Assembly (NCBI GenBank): GCA_023382385.1
Contig: JAHDVH010000001.1
Span: 801,611-865,610, forward strand
From: a bacterium
GTDB lineage: Bacteria; Electryoneota; RPQS01
Length of the DNA stretch: 64,000 bases
Direction of reading: 5' to 3'
Part shown: positions 34,893 to 47,205 of the stretch, piece after piece
Numbering within the stretch: the stretch's first letter is position 1
Layout: every line of letters begins with the position of its first letter
Notes under the pieces: generated by a model
What the model was told of the DNA's origin: nothing
What the model saw: only the letters and a program-made list of their open reading frames with translations
Databases searched by the model: none
Position numbers and translations under genes: made by a program

Positions 34893-35864
34893 ATGCATTG
34901 CGACAAACTGCCGATGACACCGCGTGTGCTTACTCTCATGCTGACGGTTGTTCTGTTTCTTGGCTGCTCATCAAAGGACCGAAACGCATTTCAAGGGTAT
35001 GTCGAAGGGGACTTTGTAGACGTTGCCACTTCACTATCGGGCCGCCTGGACTCTGTAGCAGTAAGCAAAGGTCAACAAATTGAGACAAGCGAACCACTTT
35101 TCTACCTTGACGCGGAGGCTGAATCTGCGGCCCTCCGGCAAGCACAAATGCAGGCGCAGGCCGCAGAATCCCAACTGCAGGACCTTCAGCAAGGTCGGCG
35201 TCCACAGGAAGTAGATGTCATCAAGGCGCAGCTTGAACAGGCAATGGCTAACGAGGAGTTGCTTACCTCGACTCTCCGGCGACAAGAAGCGGTCTTTAAG
35301 ACTGGAGGTATCTCTGTGGAAGAGCTTGATGTGACTCGCGCCCAAGTCGAATTGGCATCGGCTCGCGTCCGCGAACTTCAAAGTCAGCTTAGAGTCGCCC
35401 GACTTCCCGCTCGCGAGGATCAAATCAAGGCACAACAGGCCCAAGTCGCAGCGGCAAATGCGGCGGTTGAGCAATCTGCTTGGAGATTGGGGCAGAAGGC
35501 TGTCAAAGCTCCAACCGATGGTTTGGTCTTCGATGTGCTTTACCAGACCGGTGAGTGGATTGCACCCGGTGCTCCAGTTGTTCGCCTACTCCCGCCCGGC
35601 AACAGCAAGATCCGCTTCTTCGTGCCGGAACCACTCGTCAGCTCCCTGAAAGTCGGCCAGTCCGTCCACGTGCGAGTGGATGGCCGCGATGCTGACGTGC
35701 CCGCAACGATCAGCTATATTTCCGTCGTCGCTGAATACACGCCCCCGATAATCTACAGCAATGAAAACAGGTCCAAACTTGTCTTTATGGCCGAAGCAGT
35801 ACCCGTGAGACCACTGGAAACGGCTCTGAACATCGGGCAACCGGTAAGCGTCTTTGTCCCGTGA
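34893..35864 (+). CDS. HlyD-family membrane fusion lipoprotein of an ABC exporter
   Basis: A 323-aa protein. The N-terminus ends in the lipobox LFLGC (about residues 21-25), so it is likely a lipoprotein. Order: biotinyl-lipoyl half (GRLDSVAVSKGQQIETSEPLFYLDA), a long coiled-coil hairpin rich in Gln/Ala/Glu, second lipoyl half (VKAPTDGLVFDVLYQTGEWIAPGAPVVRLLP) and a beta-barrel. It resembles YbhG/YhiI-type adaptor proteins that pair with ABC-2 exporters. The stop overlaps the next start (GTGA). Confidence 0.9.
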   Translation: MHCDKLPMTPRVLTLMLTVVLFLGCSSKDRNAFQGYVEGDFVDVATSLSGRLDSVAVSKGQQIETSEPLFYLDAEAESAALRQAQMQAQAAESQLQDLQQGRRPQEVDVIKAQLEQAMANEELLTSTLRRQEAVFKTGGISVEELDVTRAQVELASARVRELQSQLRVARLPAREDQIKAQQAQVAAANAAVEQSAWRLGQKAVKAPTDGLVFDVLYQTGEWIAPGAPVVRLLPPGNSKIRFFVPEPLVSSLKVGQSVHVRVDGRDADVPATISYISVVAEYTPPIIYSNENRSKLVFMAEAVPVRPLETALNIGQPVSVFVP

Positions 35865-36796
35865 GCGGTGAACTTGCCATAGACGTGCGTGAGTTGACCA
35901 AGAGCTTCGGCCATAAGCGCGTGGTAAATAAAGTCTCGCTGCAGGTGAGGAAAGGGGAAATCTTAGGTTTTCTGGGACCGAATGGCAGCGGAAAGACGAC
36001 AACCATCCGCATGATGTGTGGTCTACTCAGGCCAGATGCGGGCAGCGGAACATGCCTCGGCTTCGACATTCTAAAGCAAAGCTCGGAGATCAAGCGGAGA
36101 GTTGGATACATGACTCAAAGGTTCTCCTATTGGGAGGACCTAACTATCCGCGAAAACCTTGACTTCGTTGCGCGGATGTACAGTATGCCTGATCGAAGTC
36201 GGGCCGTCGATCAGGCACTCGACGATCTTGGGCTGAAGAACCACGCAGATCAACTTGCCGGATCCTTGTCAGGCGGATGGAAGCAACGGATCGCACTCGC
36301 GGCCTGCCTACTCCATGAACCCAGCCTGCTACTCCTCGATGAACCGACTGCCGGAGTCGATCCTGCCGCGCGCCGCGACTTCTGGGAGGAGCTTCACCAA
36401 CTTGCACGACGCGGTATTTCGGTGCTCGTCAGCACTCACTACATGGATGAGGCGGAGCGTTGCCACAGGCTTGCATACATCTTCAACGGGAGTCTCCTTG
36501 CTGAAGGCACGGCCAATGAAGTCGTGTCGTCACAGAATCTGACAACTTGGGCGATCTACGGTCCGGACCTCGCCGTCCTCTCTGAAAAGCTCCAAGAATC
36601 CAAAGGAGTCGAGCAAACGGTGTTGTTTGGAAGAGCGCTTCATGTCAGTGGTTCCGATCCTCAATTACTCGAGCAGACTCTGCAAACTGTCGTCTCCGGG
36701 ACAAGTTGGAAGCTGGAGAGCATAGAAACCGGACTTGAGGACGTCTTTATCTACTTGATGAAGACATCCGACGGAATGCGGGAGCTTGCACCATGA
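35861..36796 (+). CDS. ABC-2 type exporter ATP-binding protein
   Basis: A 311-aa single ABC ATPase starting at GTG 35861. Walker A GPNGSGKTT near residue 39, signature LSGGWKQR, Walker B LLLLDEPTAGVDP and the H-loop STHYMDEAERC are intact. A C-terminal extension of about 70 residues follows, as in multidrug-type YbhF/CcmA ATPases. The signature has Trp where Gln/Met is usual. ATGA overlap with the permease. Confidence 0.94.
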   Translation: MSGELAIDVRELTKSFGHKRVVNKVSLQVRKGEILGFLGPNGSGKTTTIRMMCGLLRPDAGSGTCLGFDILKQSSEIKRRVGYMTQRFSYWEDLTIRENLDFVARMYSMPDRSRAVDQALDDLGLKNHADQLAGSLSGGWKQRIALAACLLHEPSLLLLDEPTAGVDPAARRDFWEELHQLARRGISVLVSTHYMDEAERCHRLAYIFNGSLLAEGTANEVVSSQNLTTWAIYGPDLAVLSEKLQESKGVEQTVLFGRALHVSGSDPQLLEQTLQTVVSGTSWKLESIETGLEDVFIYLMKTSDGMRELAP

Positions 36797-37935
36797 GCCT
36801 GTTGAATATTGCGGGCTTTTCCCGCTGGTGGAGCATGGTCGTTAAAGAGTTCATCCAGCTCAAACGCGATCGCTTGACCTTCGGAATGATAGTCATGATT
36901 CCGCTCGTCCAGCTGACTCTCTTCGGTTACGCTATCAATAGCGATCCCAAGCACATGCCGACCGCGCTGATAATTTCGGATCACAGCGAAATCACACGCA
37001 CGCTCGTTTCTTCACTGAAACTCTCGGGATATTTTGACATAATCGGAACCATTTCCACGGAAGAAGAGGCTCGCCAAGCCCTTGCCCGTGGTGACATTCA
37101 GTTCGTCATTAATATTCCTGCCGGCTTCACCAAGAATCTTCTGCGCGGCGATCGCCCCGCTCTCCTGATTGAAGCTGACGCAACGGATCCCTCGGCTACC
37201 GCAATGGCGCTCGCAAATGTCGGACAGTTGACTGAGTCTGTCGCTCGCAAGGACTTCAACGGGCCATTGTCGTTCCTGAAGTCTCCTCCTCCCGCTTTTG
37301 ATGTTCGCGTTCACCGCCTCTACAATCCCGAAGGCAATACTCACTTCAACATCGTTCCCGGTCTAATGGGCGTCATTCTGACAATGATGATGATCCTGAT
37401 GACCGGTTTGGCAATTACACGTGAACGTGAACGAGGAACAATGGAGAATTTGCTGGCAATGCCCGTACGGCCCTTCGAAGTCATGGCGGGCAAGATTCTT
37501 CCCTATATCGCAATCGGTCTGATTCAATCGTCAATCATTCTGGTCGCCGCATTAGTGCTGTTTGGAGTTCCGTTCTTCGGGAACATTGTCACGTTGTATT
37601 TGATAACACTCTTGTTTGTGGCCGTGAATTTGATGGTCGGAATCACGCTGTCTTCAATCGCCCGCAGTCAGCTTCAGGCCATGCAGATGACGGTGTTCTA
37701 CTTTCTCCCGAACATTCTGCTGTCCGGCTTCATGTTCCCATTTCGCGGAATGCCGCAGTGGGCGCAGTTTATCGGTAACCTTTTGCCGCTCACCTATTAC
37801 AACAGACTGGTCAGAGGCGTCTTCTTGAAAGGCTCCTCTTTCCCAGACCTCTGGCCGAACATCTGGCCCTTAGCTCTCTTCGGCGTGCTCCTCATGACGG
37901 TCGCGGTCACCTTCTACCGCCGCACAATGGATTAG
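36793..37935 (+). CDS. ABC-2 type exporter permease
   Basis: A 380-aa ABC-2 permease with one N-terminal membrane helix (IVMIPLVQLTLFGYAINSD), a periplasmic domain of about 150 residues, and five C-terminal helices, including the conserved RERERGTMENLLAMPVRPFEVMAGKILPYI. Similar to YbhS/YbhR. Only one permease gene is present, so it probably works as a homodimer. The substrate is unknown. Confidence 0.93.
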   Translation: MSLLNIAGFSRWWSMVVKEFIQLKRDRLTFGMIVMIPLVQLTLFGYAINSDPKHMPTALIISDHSEITRTLVSSLKLSGYFDIIGTISTEEEARQALARGDIQFVINIPAGFTKNLLRGDRPALLIEADATDPSATAMALANVGQLTESVARKDFNGPLSFLKSPPPAFDVRVHRLYNPEGNTHFNIVPGLMGVILTMMMILMTGLAITRERERGTMENLLAMPVRPFEVMAGKILPYIAIGLIQSSIILVAALVLFGVPFFGNIVTLYLITLLFVAVNLMVGITLSSIARSQLQAMQMTVFYFLPNILLSGFMFPFRGMPQWAQFIGNLLPLTYYNRLVRGVFLKGSSFPDLWPNIWPLALFGVLLMTVAVTFYRRTMD

Positions 37936-38080: not shown

Positions 38081-38109
38081 TTGACAACTTGTCACCCCTC
38101 AATTATATT
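38081..38109 (+). promoter_or_regulatory. Sigma-70-type promoter for the structured leader and HExxH gene
   Basis: TTGACA at 38081-38086, a 17-base spacer, and TATATT at 38104-38109: a near-consensus promoter. Transcription should start near 38116, about 155 bases before ATG 38270, leaving the leader described next. Confidence 0.8.
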
Positions 38110-38132
38110 CCCTTAACATCACTTTCAACTTA

Positions 38133-38250
38133 GGCCGGCTGGTGTCGGCTGATTTGTAGAAAAGGCGAATCTCCGGTGCCGAACGCGGCATGTGGGAATT
38201 CGCCGTTCTCTTTTTGGTTTCTCTGAACGGTGTCTCTTCACAAGCCGGCC
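38133..38250 (+). promoter_or_regulatory. Structured 5' leader with terminator-like hairpin; attenuator or riboswitch candidate
   Basis: A closing helix GGCCGGCT (38133-38140) / AGCCGGCC (38243-38250) brackets the region. Inside, hairpin A pairs GGCGAAT (38164-38170) with ATTCGCC (38198-38204), with an inner TGCC/GGCA stem, and is followed by GTTCTCTTTTT, so it resembles an intrinsic terminator. Hairpin B pairs CCGTTC (38203-38208) with GAACGG (38225-38230); it shares two bases with hairpin A and contains the T-run, so A and B compete. A second copy of CGGCT (38146-38150) could also pair with the right arm. The 3' arm ends 9 bases before the GGAGG at 38260. I could not match it to a known riboswitch class. 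The alternative reading is just a terminator for the upstream operon plus chance pairing. Confidence 0.55.
38164..38215 (+). terminator. Terminator-like hairpin within the leader
   Basis: A 7-bp outer stem and 4-bp inner stem with a 6-base loop, followed by a T-rich run (8 T in 11 bases). It lies about 230 bases past the ABC permease stop and about 50 bases after the predicted leader start, so it could end upstream readthrough, attenuate the next gene, or both. Confidence 0.55.
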
Positions 38251-38269
38251 ATGACAATCGGAGGCACAC

Positions 38270-39997
38270 ATGAAGAAGAGAAGTACCATTCTGTGGCTGG
38301 GATTTTTCGCTGTTGTCGTCGGCATTCTTACAGCATCGGAACCCGTTCGTCCGAGATTCGTTCCCCCCGACCGACTTGACTTTAGCTACGACAGCAGCTG
38401 GAGCGGCCGCGAGCTTGAGCCAGGCGAAGTGACAGTAATTCAGCAGGCCATCAACTCAATCAAGAATGCGCCGCCTGACTCCTTCCGCTATGTTGACGCG
38501 GGCGGCAATACTCTGGCAGTCTCCTGTTCAACTCTGGCAAAACTGCTGCAAGGCCAGCTCGACGCCGGCACAATGGAGGCCGAGACTATGAACGAGGATG
38601 CCGCCGGCGGTGAGTATTGGGACGAGATTAACATCCGCGACGATGTGTTGGACAACGCAGTTGAGAATGCGGACACGCGCTATCTTGAAGAGCTGCTCGT
38701 CCATGAAGCGACTCACAAGGGTCAACCCAATTCGCTCCCGGAAACCGATACTGAAATCCCCGCATACGCCGCCGAGCTTGCGTATAAGGACTCAATCGGA
38801 CTCGATTCGACAGACGCCGACTATCGTTTCGTGCGCGACAAATTGAAGCGATATCGTCGAGTTCACGCTTACAACGAACTAAAGCGTCAGCTTGAATCGT
38901 GCTGGGTGACGCGCTGGGTTGTGCGCTATTTGCCGAAAGAGCCTCCCGAGAATTGGCAGCTCGCGGCCTTTCAATTAGGGGACACGGACGAGGTTCTCCA
39001 CGACCTCGGACCGCTCGAAGTTACCGACATGCTGTCGTGGGAGAACTACTTCGGGAATGATGTCAGCCTCATCTTGCTGATGGGCGCGTCACGCAACGGC
39101 GGCACGCATCTCACCGGTTTCCAATTCCAGAACGGTCATGTCATCGGACCGTCGCCGTGGTGGCAGATGCTCTTTCCACCGGGCTTCTACTCGTTTGCCT
39201 ACAGCAATCAGATGCACTGCTATTTCATCGTCGACACACTCAATCGTGTGATCCTGCGCGCGCCCGACATGAATGAAGACAAACTGCCTGACGGGCCGTT
39301 CTTCGTCTGGGCACACGCATGGCAGTTTCCTCAACTTGAAGGAATGCTCAGCGTTTTGCCCACTGCGCACCCACAGCACGGCTACGGCCTCCTCGTGAAT
39401 GACTTTGATGCACACTACTCAAGGTGGATTCCGGCCTACGATGTCTTGCCGTTTCTTGTGGATGTGGACGGCGCTGAAGGCGCGGATATTGCTTTCCCCT
39501 GTGCACGTTACGAGTTCGTGAACATCAAGCCGCGTATTGTCGAACCTTGGCCATGGGCTGGAGAGAATTTCTGTACGGTCTTTGGAACTTGGCAACATCC
39601 GATCGAGGTCTGGCGTACCGATCCCACCGGCGAAATCATGCAACAGCCGCTGGGTGTCGCCTTCCTCAATAATAACATCGTTACGGAGTGTCCGCTGATC
39701 GAACCGCTGCTTCCGGGTGATCACATTCTCGCTTTCGATCCTGTCAGCCAAAAACGCTTGAAACTTCCCTATGAAGTTCAGGATCCAACTCCGCGCAACT
39801 TGACGATTCACTACACCGGAGACGGCATGTTCAGGCTGGATTGGCAGGATGTCGAGGGTGCCGGAGCCTATCGGATCGAATTCTCCACGGACGGTGTCTT
39901 CTGGGAGGATCCGGGCCTCATCACCCCTGTGAGCGAATTCATGATTCCTCTGCTCCACTCGGACCTCATGATGTTCCGCGTTATCGCTCTCCGATAG
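38270..39997 (+). CDS. Secreted protein with HExxH motif, unrecognised family
   Basis: A 575-aa protein with a signal peptide or anchor (residues about 7-23). HEATH at residues 145-149 within ELLVHEATHKGQ, followed by TEIPAYAAELAYKD (Glu162, Glu169), gives the pattern of a gluzincin-like metallopeptidase with a downstream Glu ligand. The middle 250 residues are rich in Trp, Phe and Asp and unassigned. The last 65 residues (FRLDWQDVEGAGAYRIEFSTDG...) look like a fibronectin-III-like module. Only one or two Cys. Ribosome site GGAGG lies 5 bases before the ATG. Peptidase activity is inferred only from the motif. Confidence 0.75.
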   Translation: MKKRSTILWLGFFAVVVGILTASEPVRPRFVPPDRLDFSYDSSWSGRELEPGEVTVIQQAINSIKNAPPDSFRYVDAGGNTLAVSCSTLAKLLQGQLDAGTMEAETMNEDAAGGEYWDEINIRDDVLDNAVENADTRYLEELLVHEATHKGQPNSLPETDTEIPAYAAELAYKDSIGLDSTDADYRFVRDKLKRYRRVHAYNELKRQLESCWVTRWVVRYLPKEPPENWQLAAFQLGDTDEVLHDLGPLEVTDMLSWENYFGNDVSLILLMGASRNGGTHLTGFQFQNGHVIGPSPWWQMLFPPGFYSFAYSNQMHCYFIVDTLNRVILRAPDMNEDKLPDGPFFVWAHAWQFPQLEGMLSVLPTAHPQHGYGLLVNDFDAHYSRWIPAYDVLPFLVDVDGAEGADIAFPCARYEFVNIKPRIVEPWPWAGENFCTVFGTWQHPIEVWRTDPTGEIMQQPLGVAFLNNNIVTECPLIEPLLPGDHILAFDPVSQKRLKLPYEVQDPTPRNLTIHYTGDGMFRLDWQDVEGAGAYRIEFSTDGVFWEDPGLITPVSEFMIPLLHSDLMMFRVIALR

Positions 39998-44152: not shown

Positions 44153-44331
44153 CGTTACTATTGGAAATGCCATAGGGTGCCGCAATATAGTGAAGTGAAT
44201 TTGAATTGTCAAGCAGAAATTGCCGGGGGAAAGTGTTGCCGAACTCAGATGAGTTCTGCCTACCTGTCTTGATTATCGGCTGTTTTTTCGGTACATTGAA
44301 TATCTACATTAAGATACGGATTTACAGATAG

Positions 44332-47205
44332 ATGGAATCGCCGTTCGTGCGGGTTTCCGGGGCTAGGGAGCATAACCTTCAGGACATCTCCCTAGAGTTG
44401 CCTCGCAACCGATTGATTGTCATTACTGGCATTTCAGGCTCCGGGAAGTCCTCTCTGGCGTTTGATACGCTATATGCGGAGGGTCAGCGACGATACGTCG
44501 AATCGCTCTCTGCCTATGCCCGCCAATTTCTCGGGCTGATGGAAAAGCCGGACGTGGATGCCATCGAAGGACTCTCTCCTGCCATTTCCATTCAGCAAAA
44601 ATCAGGAATCCGCAATCCTCGTTCGACAGTAGCGACGGTCACCGAGATTTACGACTACTTGAGACTGCTCTATGCCCGCATCGGTAAACCGCACTGCCCA
44701 AGCTGCGGCAAACCGATTCAGCGGCAGACGGCGCAGGAGATAGTAGATGCACTCCTGCAGCTTCCCGAAGGCGCGAAAATCCAACTGCTCGCACCGATTG
44801 TCAGCGGGCGCAAGGGCGAATATCGGGAGATTTTTGAGAACATTCAGCGCGACGGGTTTGTGCGCGTGCGCGTGGACGGAGAGACCCGCTCGCTGGATGA
44901 GAAAATCGACCTCGACAAAAAGCGGCGTCACACGATTGAAGTGGTCGTAGATCGACTGGTCATCAAAGACGGTTTGCGTGCGCGGCTGACCGATTCGGTG
45001 GAAACGACACTTCGGCTCTCCAGTGGCCTGCTGGTCGCAACCATCGAGGGCAGGAAAGAGCGAATCTTCAGCGAACGCTTCGCCTGTCCTGACTGCAATA
45101 TCTCGATTCAGGAAATCGAGCCTCGACTCTTCAGTTTCAACAGTCCGTTCGGTGCGTGTGAACGCTGCACGGGCTTGGGATTTAAGATGGAAATCGATCC
45201 CGAGCGCGTGGTGCCGAACGACGAGCTTTCGATCGAAGACGGAGCGATTACGAGCCTCGCCGGCGGTGTAGACGGCTGGATGGGAAACATGCTGGACGCC
45301 GTTACCCGTAAGTTCAAGATAAGTCTCACGACCCCGTGGAAGAAGCTGAAGCAGGAGCACAAGCAAATCATTCTCTACGGGTCGGGCAAGCGTGAAGTCG
45401 AGTTCGTATGGGAAGGACAGAAGTCTCGCTTTGAGACGACGGGCAAATGGGAAGGCATCATTCCCAACCTGATGCGCCGCTATTCGCAGACGTCGTCGCA
45501 GCAGGTGCGCGAGTGGATTGAAGACTTCATGGGGAATATTCCCTGCCCTGCCTGCAACGGTGCGCGACTGAAGCCTGAAGCGCTCTCTGTCCTGGTCAAT
45601 GGCCGGAACATTCACGAGGTATGCGACGACTCCATAGGCCACGCGCACGACTTCTTCAGCACATTGAATTTGAATGAGCGCGATACGATGATTGCGCGCC
45701 AGATTCTCAAGGAAGTGCGCGAACGCCTGACTTTCCTGCTCGACGTCGGCTTGGACTATCTGACCTTAAACCGTGCTGCGGGCAGCCTGTCCGGCGGGGA
45801 AGCGCAGCGGATTCGCTTGGCCACGCAGATCGGCTCGCAGTTGACCGGAGTGATGTACATTCTCGATGAGCCTTCGATCGGGCTACATCAGCGCGACAAT
45901 GACAGACTGATTGCAACTCTGAAGCGACTGCGCGACATCGGCAACACGGTCATCGTCGTGGAACATGACCGCGACACGATCGAAGCCGCCGATCACGTTG
46001 TGGATCTCGGACCCGGCGCAGGACGCCACGGAGGAAAGATCGTCGCTGAAGGAACTCCCGCAGAAGTCGCCGCCGTTCCTCACTCGCTGACAGGCAGATT
46101 CCTAAGCGGCACGGACCGGATTGAGTTGCCGGCAAGTCGCCGGGAAGGTATTGGTAAGAGTCTTGGACTAAAGCGTGCGCGCGGCAACAACCTGAAGGAA
46201 GTGACGGTCGAGTTTCCACTCGGGACCTTTATTGCCGTGACCGGAGTTTCAGGATCAGGCAAGTCTTCATTGATCAACGAAACCCTCTACCGCGCGCTCG
46301 CACAGAAATTCTACAGTGCGAAGGATCCGCCGCTGCCCTACGGCCAGATCACGGGCTTGCAGCACATCGACAAGGTGATCGATATCGATCAGTCGCCGAT
46401 CGGCAGGACGCCGCGCTCGAATCCCGCGACATACACCGGTTTGTTCACGATGATCCGCGACCTCTTCAGTCAACTGCCTGAAGCCAAGATTCGCGGCTAC
46501 AAGCCGGGCCGTTTTTCGTTCAATGTAAAGGGCGGCCGCTGTGAGAATTGCCAGGGCGACGGAATCATCAAAATTGAAATGCACTTCCTTCCCGACGTGT
46601 ATGTCCCCTGCGAAGTTTGCCACGGCAAGCGCTACAATCGCGAGACGCTGGAGGTTCGCTGGAAAGGCAAGTCCATTGCTGACGTGCTGGACATGAATGT
46701 GTCCGACGCTCGCGAGTTTTTTGAATCGATGCCGCCGATTGCGCGCAAACTGAAGACTCTCGAAGAAGTCGGACTGGGGTACATTCATTTGGGACAACAG
46801 GCGACGACGCTCTCCGGCGGCGAGGCCCAGCGCGTAAAGCTGGCGACAGAGCTCTCGCGCGTCGCGACTGGTAGAACACTTTACATTCTCGACGAGCCTA
46901 CAACGGGATTGCATTTTCACGACATCAAACTATTGCTCAAAGTGCTGCATACACTTGTGGATCGTGGCAACACGGTTTTGGTCATCGAGCACAATCTCGA
47001 CGTGATCAAGACCGCGGATTGGCTGATTGATCTGGGACCGGAAGGCGGCGAGCGGGGCGGTGAAGTTCTGGTCGCCGGAACACCCGAGCAAGTCGCGCGC
47101 TTCAAGGGAAGTCACACCGGCCGTTATCTCAAAGTGGAACTTGAAGCGAATCGCAATGCGGCGTCCGCTGCGCGGCGCAATAATCGCGCGGAGGTCAGCG
47201 CTTGA
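44332..47205 (+). CDS. uvrA: Excinuclease ABC subunit A
   Basis: A 957-aa nucleotide-excision-repair damage sensor. Two ABC modules: Walker [13 protein letters not shown] near residue 33 and [13 protein letters not shown] near residue 640, signatures [16 protein letters not shown] and [16 protein letters not shown]. Zinc-finger cysteines occur in [36 protein letters not shown] and CENCQGDG...CEVCHGKR. Length is standard. It overlaps the next gene by 4 bases. Confidence 0.97.

Follow-up and report, generated by a model that had tools for sequence, protein, structure and literature searches.

Organisation of the locus

The window, i.e. the whole stretch of 64,000 nucleotides analysed here, is part of genome G000 and contains a gene encoding a 575-aa protein with a HExxH motif, whose 5' leader is the subject of this work. 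Between the promoter and the start codon (ATG at 38270) the leader can form two hairpins, named P1 and P2, the second one being followed by a T-rich tail (Table 1). The protein matches no Pfam or NCBIfam family, and in the PDB it showed only a weak FN3-like resemblance at the C-terminus (E = 0.048). A role as a secreted metallopeptidase-like protein is plausible from its sequence, because the HExxH residues H145, E146 and H149 are invariant in 10 homologues. The family is multicopy in relatives, with five matches in G012 and three in G010, and some copies lie close together on one contig (family loci in relatives: L006, L011, L014, L016, L017, L010, L013 and L015).

G001 is the only other genome of the same genus that was compared. 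It carries an orthologue of the 575-aa protein (65% identical), likewise encoded between flgC and the gene of an NtrC-type regulator. In the window, a HlyD-like/ABC ATPase/ABC permease operon (34893-37935) is located between flgC and the HExxH gene; in G001 this operon is missing and flgC adjoins the gene, a difference that, judging from the two genomes, is an insertion or a loss inside the genus.

Table 1. Coordinates in the window of the elements of the HExxH leader and of the gene that follows it.
Feature	Position	Strand	Description
Sigma-70-type promoter	38081..38109	+	TTGACA-17-TATATT; 11/12 consensus matches; top score in 3 kb
Hairpin P1, proposed anti-antiterminator	38133..38151 (also given as 38133-38150)	+	GGCCGGC-UGGU-GUCGGCU; minimum free energy (MFE) structure in both species
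Proposed antiterminator AT, 5' arm	38140..38157	+	38140-38148 and 38151-38157; pairs with 38165-38181 (38140-38148 with 38173-38181; 38151-38157 with 38165-38171)
Proposed antiterminator AT, 3' arm	38165..38181	+	38165-38171 and 38173-38181; shares bases with P2 (5' strand)
Hairpin P2, terminator-like stem	38164..38204	+	Outer 38164-38170/38198-38204, inner 38176-38181/38186-38191; conserved in G001
T-rich tail of P2, proposed RNA 3' end on termination	38205..38215	+	GTTCTCTTTTT; prediction; G001 counterpart CTGTTTTTG
Closing helix of the earlier note	38133..38250	+	38133-38140 with 38243-38250; present in the window, no G001 counterpart
Competing 6-bp stem of the earlier note	38203..38230	+	38203-38208 with 38225-38230; present in the window, no G001 counterpart seen
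Shine-Dalgarno-like motif	38259..38264	+	CGGAGG; 5 nt 5' of the ATG; read from the sequence
HExxH gene	38270..39997	+	575-aa protein, N-terminal hydrophobic segment and HEATH (HExxH) motif; putative secreted metallopeptidase-like

An earlier note on this DNA, made from the letters of the window, had described a near-consensus promoter followed by a folded leader. The promoter is indeed there, with TTGACA at 38081-38086, a spacer of 17 nt and TATATT at 38104-38109. In G001 the TATATT is preceded by TGG (extended -10), the -35 element is weak (TTGCTT) and the promoter falls below the scan threshold. The distance from TATATT to the P1 element is 22 nt in G001 and 23 nt in the window, and both leaders follow a common layout: TATATT, these 22 or 23 nt, the P1 element, a short spacer, a hairpin of 41 nt (the same length in both genomes), T5, about 55-60 nt and the ATG. 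The promoter scan scored no second promoter between the T-run and the Shine-Dalgarno motif in the window, and a second good one downstream of the T-run is unlikely because this gap measures only about 45 nt. The leader core (38131-38224) comprises the two hairpins, and its fold beats 200 of 200 shuffles (z = -3.25); the G001 core does likewise (200/200, z = -4.45). Thus, the arrangement that characterises attenuators, a promoter and an intrinsic-terminator-like hairpin before the start codon, is found in the window and is conserved in G001.

The terminator-like hairpin and its conservation

P2 corresponds to the inner T-tailed hairpin of the earlier note. Its outer stem is formed by GGCGAAU (38164-38170) and AUUCGCC (38198-38204), and the T5 run occupies 38211-38215. 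The pairing is conserved in G001 with compensatory changes: when the lower extension of the stem is included, all 15 compared pairs are kept, four of them changed on both sides and none broken. Mutation simulations of equal extent reached the observed pairing of the arms in 0.02-0.26% of trials. The stem with its lower extension has an energy of -26.2 kcal/mol in the window and -22.1 kcal/mol in G001, values at the strong end of the range for terminator-like hairpins that follow genes in G000 and G001 (327 kb and 290 kb surveyed, respectively). If the mismatched lower extension does not form, 3-6 nt separate the T-run from the outer 7-bp stem; a simple terminator scanner called no site at the window leader, because the T-run begins 6 nt past this outer stem. 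The assignment of P2 as a terminator is a prediction that rests on folding and comparison.

P2 was also considered as the terminator of an upstream operon, and this was ruled out. G001 has no close codirectional upstream gene, and its upstream neighbour flgC is divergent, therefore P2 cannot terminate an upstream operon there. In the window the promoter at 38081 intervenes, and 275 nt lie between the end of the codirectional upstream gene and the T-run.

A BLAST search with the leader over the family retrieved no relative at useful E-values and missed the G001 leader, which was located via the orthologous gene and a local alignment of the upstream regions (score 19; shuffled mean 10.7, maximum 18). 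Upstream regions were compared for 26 orthologue pairs in which they are free; most are conserved, many of them to a much higher degree than the HExxH leader, which is in the lower third. Because conserved upstream regions are common between G000 and G001, it is the pattern of changes that carries weight and not the similarity. The most conserved part of the leader is the P1 block, CGGCYGGUNUCGGCUGAU, whose consensus register is CGGCYG-GUNU-CGGCUG, and there is little conservation after the T-run. Within the family, exact matches to the block occur only at the two leaders. The direct repeat CGGCYGRT, considered as a possible DNA operator, is likewise found in its exact form only at these two leaders.

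This distribution of conservation bears on a different reading, in which the promoter and P2 would constitute a small RNA gene yielding a stable, trans-acting RNA of about 100 nt with two hairpins, and the HExxH gene would be expressed only via leaky read-through, a situation that could coexist with attenuation. The compact order of promoter, hairpin and terminator and the drop of conservation behind the T-run are what such a gene would display, and small RNAs derived from 5' UTRs are known (PMC7815308; PMC11394854). On the other hand, the leader adjoins the orthologous gene in both genomes, at about 55-60 nt from the start codon and without a good second promoter; the overlap of P1 with the other pairings described below is not required by a small RNA, and a second copy of the leader was not found in the family. 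A small RNA gene is consequently considered unlikely.

Alternative pairings and the proposed mechanism

The 5' strand of P2 is complementary to the P1 region, and this complementarity, named AT, is observed in both species. Thirteen equivalent AT pairs are common to the window and G001, five of which vary without loss of pairing, and the outer helix presents a one-base offset between the two species. The duplex energies are -18.7 and -18.5 kcal/mol in the two species, and energies of this order were reached in 1.5-2.4% of random-mutation trials. Permutation of the letters with the changed positions fixed gave p = 0.08-0.20, and for the window alone p = 0.09-0.23 was obtained against dinucleotide shuffles. 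When the RNA was folded at increasing lengths, AT was the MFE structure of the nascent G001 RNA before the 3' strand of P2 emerges; in the window, P1 was favoured over AT by about 5 kcal/mol. The two states thus appear close enough to be tipped from one to the other, since P1 is ahead by only this amount in the window and AT is the MFE structure in G001. From the folding models and the comparison of both genomes, this upstream antiterminator likely competes with P2 in both of them. The best register of P1 is not the same in the window and in G001; the conservation of the P1 block in spite of its shifting register would be explained if the block must pair with itself and with P2.

On these grounds, transcription attenuation is the most likely function of the sequence, which is regarded as the 5' leader of the HExxH gene; this reading is held with somewhat better than even confidence. 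RNA polymerase would start at about 38116. Formation of P1 would leave the 5' strand of P2 free, so that P2 could fold as its 3' strand emerges, and transcription would stop in the T-run at about 38215, releasing a leader RNA of about 100 nt (state OFF). If AT forms instead, the 5' strand of P2 would be occupied by the P1 region, P2 would come too late and polymerase would read through into the HExxH gene (state ON). AT would be favoured by a factor (a protein, a small RNA or a ligand) or by the speed of transcription. The default state is probably OFF according to the folding model, because in the completed leader P1 and P2 together are far more stable than AT. Termination itself, switching between the states and the direction of the control are what we infer from these structures.

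A simpler possibility is that P2 acts constitutively and without switching, reducing or stabilising expression either as a stable structure of the 5' UTR or as a partial terminator. The support for AT is moderate, the analysis identified no ligand, regulator or leader peptide, and another promoter-proximal T-tailed hairpin precedes a polyprenyl-synthetase-like gene in both genomes, all of which would suit such a leader. Nevertheless, the P1 block is conserved beyond what a hairpin needs and its best register differs by species, as expected if it also pairs with P2; a constitutive leader is therefore judged rather unlikely.

The earlier note had proposed a leader of the attenuator type, in which a terminator competes with another stem, and all the elements that it listed are present where it placed them. 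As a design this proposal stands; the mechanism drawn for it, based on a closing helix and a 6-bp stem, does not, and the conserved competitor lies upstream. The closing helix consists of 8 Watson-Crick pairs between GGCCGGCU (38133-38140) and AGCCGGCC (38243-38250) and spans 118 nt, and the 6-bp stem pairs CCGUUC (38203-38208) with GAACGG (38225-38230), having two bases in common with P2. Both helices need bases that are transcribed after the T-run, therefore they cannot stop termination at this point. Neither helix has a counterpart in G001, where the best pairing between the 5' leader and the region after the terminator is 5 bp (p = 0.87). Among shuffled leaders, a perfect 8-bp helix occurs in 11% and a 6-bp one in 85%, so that the closing helix is borderline with respect to chance and the 6-bp stem is unsurprising. 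It is true that the closing-helix fold is the MFE structure of the window RNA when this ends at about 38251-38269 (at about 38251-38256, -53.0 kcal/mol vs -49.3 kcal/mol with P2 enforced). However, P1 and P2 constitute the MFE structure again once the first coding bases are included, the probability of the closing helix then being 0. Control of termination or of ribosome access by these two helices is consequently very improbable, and the attenuator based on P1, AT and P2 is the reading retained in what follows.

Distribution and relation to known leaders

A covariance model of the two leaders, run against 39 genomes of the phylum, recovered only those two, plus a chance-level match (E = 0.099). 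None of the homologues examined from other genera has a comparable T-tailed hairpin 5' of the start codon, and in most of them a TTGACA-type promoter is followed by 57-114 nt of leader. A scan of genome contigs added one distant homologue, apparently on the same contig as L004, whose leader is also devoid of a T-tailed hairpin. In the collections searched the attenuator-like leader is known from two sequences only, and it appears to be specific to the genus, P2 looking like an addition made within it.

With regard to classes of regulatory RNA, the earlier note could not name one for this leader; Rfam agrees, as no family matched in the window at the gathering threshold of Rfam 15, and matches at E up to 10 were at chance level for both the window leader and its G001 counterpart. 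Neither did the Pfam, NCBIfam and PDB comparisons of the downstream gene give any hint of a ligand. A speculative idea, to which only a slim chance is given, is that secreted HExxH proteins of an undescribed family are controlled, in this one uncultivated genus only, by a riboswitch of a new class, whose aptamer would comprise the P1 block and the loop of P2, or by a new antitermination factor that binds there. An attenuator of the leader-peptide type was rejected: read by eye, neither genome has an ORF starting with ATG ahead of P2. A 5-codon GTG ORF at 38143 exists in the window, and its start codon is missing in G001. A further ORF of 27 codons (38190-38273, forward strand; MWEFAVLFLVSLNGVSSQAGHDNRRHT) overlaps the start of the HExxH gene by ATGA and lacks a Shine-Dalgarno motif; in G001 the frame opened by the corresponding ATG is closed by a stop after two codons, and the ORF is probably due to chance.

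Attenuation by terminators is already a well established principle, and in E. coli many transcripts end prematurely within the 5' UTR (PMC7815308). In TRAP/trp, in L10(L12)4/rplJL and in terminator-type riboswitches, as predicted for the present leader, overlapping anti-antiterminator, antiterminator and terminator are located between the promoter and the start codon; unlike them, the present leader is free of serial (G/U)AG repeats and of any Rfam aptamer, it does not precede a ribosomal protein gene, and it belongs to one genus. A close parallel in function comes from Listeria monocytogenes, where mpl has a leader, Rli51, with a predicted terminator or antiterminator fold; in some conditions Rli51 undergoes premature termination and releases a 121-nt RNA, and a partner small RNA binds it, with an effect that has been measured (PMC11394854). 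Both leaders have predicted terminator/antiterminator alternatives and precede a zinc-metalloprotease or metallopeptidase-like gene. Nevertheless, the organisms are different, the proteases are not shown to be related and the parallel is functional, with no claim of homology, the present leader being known from sequence.

Little is known about regulatory RNAs in uncultivated phyla. If the proposal is true, the leader would be an orphan attenuator common to sister species, within a family whose other genera have the gene but appear to be without the leader, which would suggest that control by premature termination is a recent acquisition of a gene that already had its promoter.

Two other upstream regions attracted attention during the survey. 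The polyprenyl-synthetase-like gene (named by eye; G000:C1 near 748.9 kb, L052, and G001:C1:127530, L039) is preceded by a promoter-like TTGCAA...TATTATAT and then, immediately after it, by a short hairpin with T7. The stem sequence of this hairpin differs between G000 and G001 with the pairing kept, and from these sequences the leader is a possible second promoter-proximal attenuator. The second region lies upstream of a uvrA-like gene (start at 44332, named by eye). A candidate terminator at 44281 in its leader was rejected, as it turned out to be the T-run of a promoter. The segment 44010-44331 of the window is strongly conserved in G001, including GGGAAAGTGTTGCCGAA and TTGATTATCGGCTG-TTTTTCGGTACATT, the latter of which looks like a TTGATT-17-TACATT promoter.
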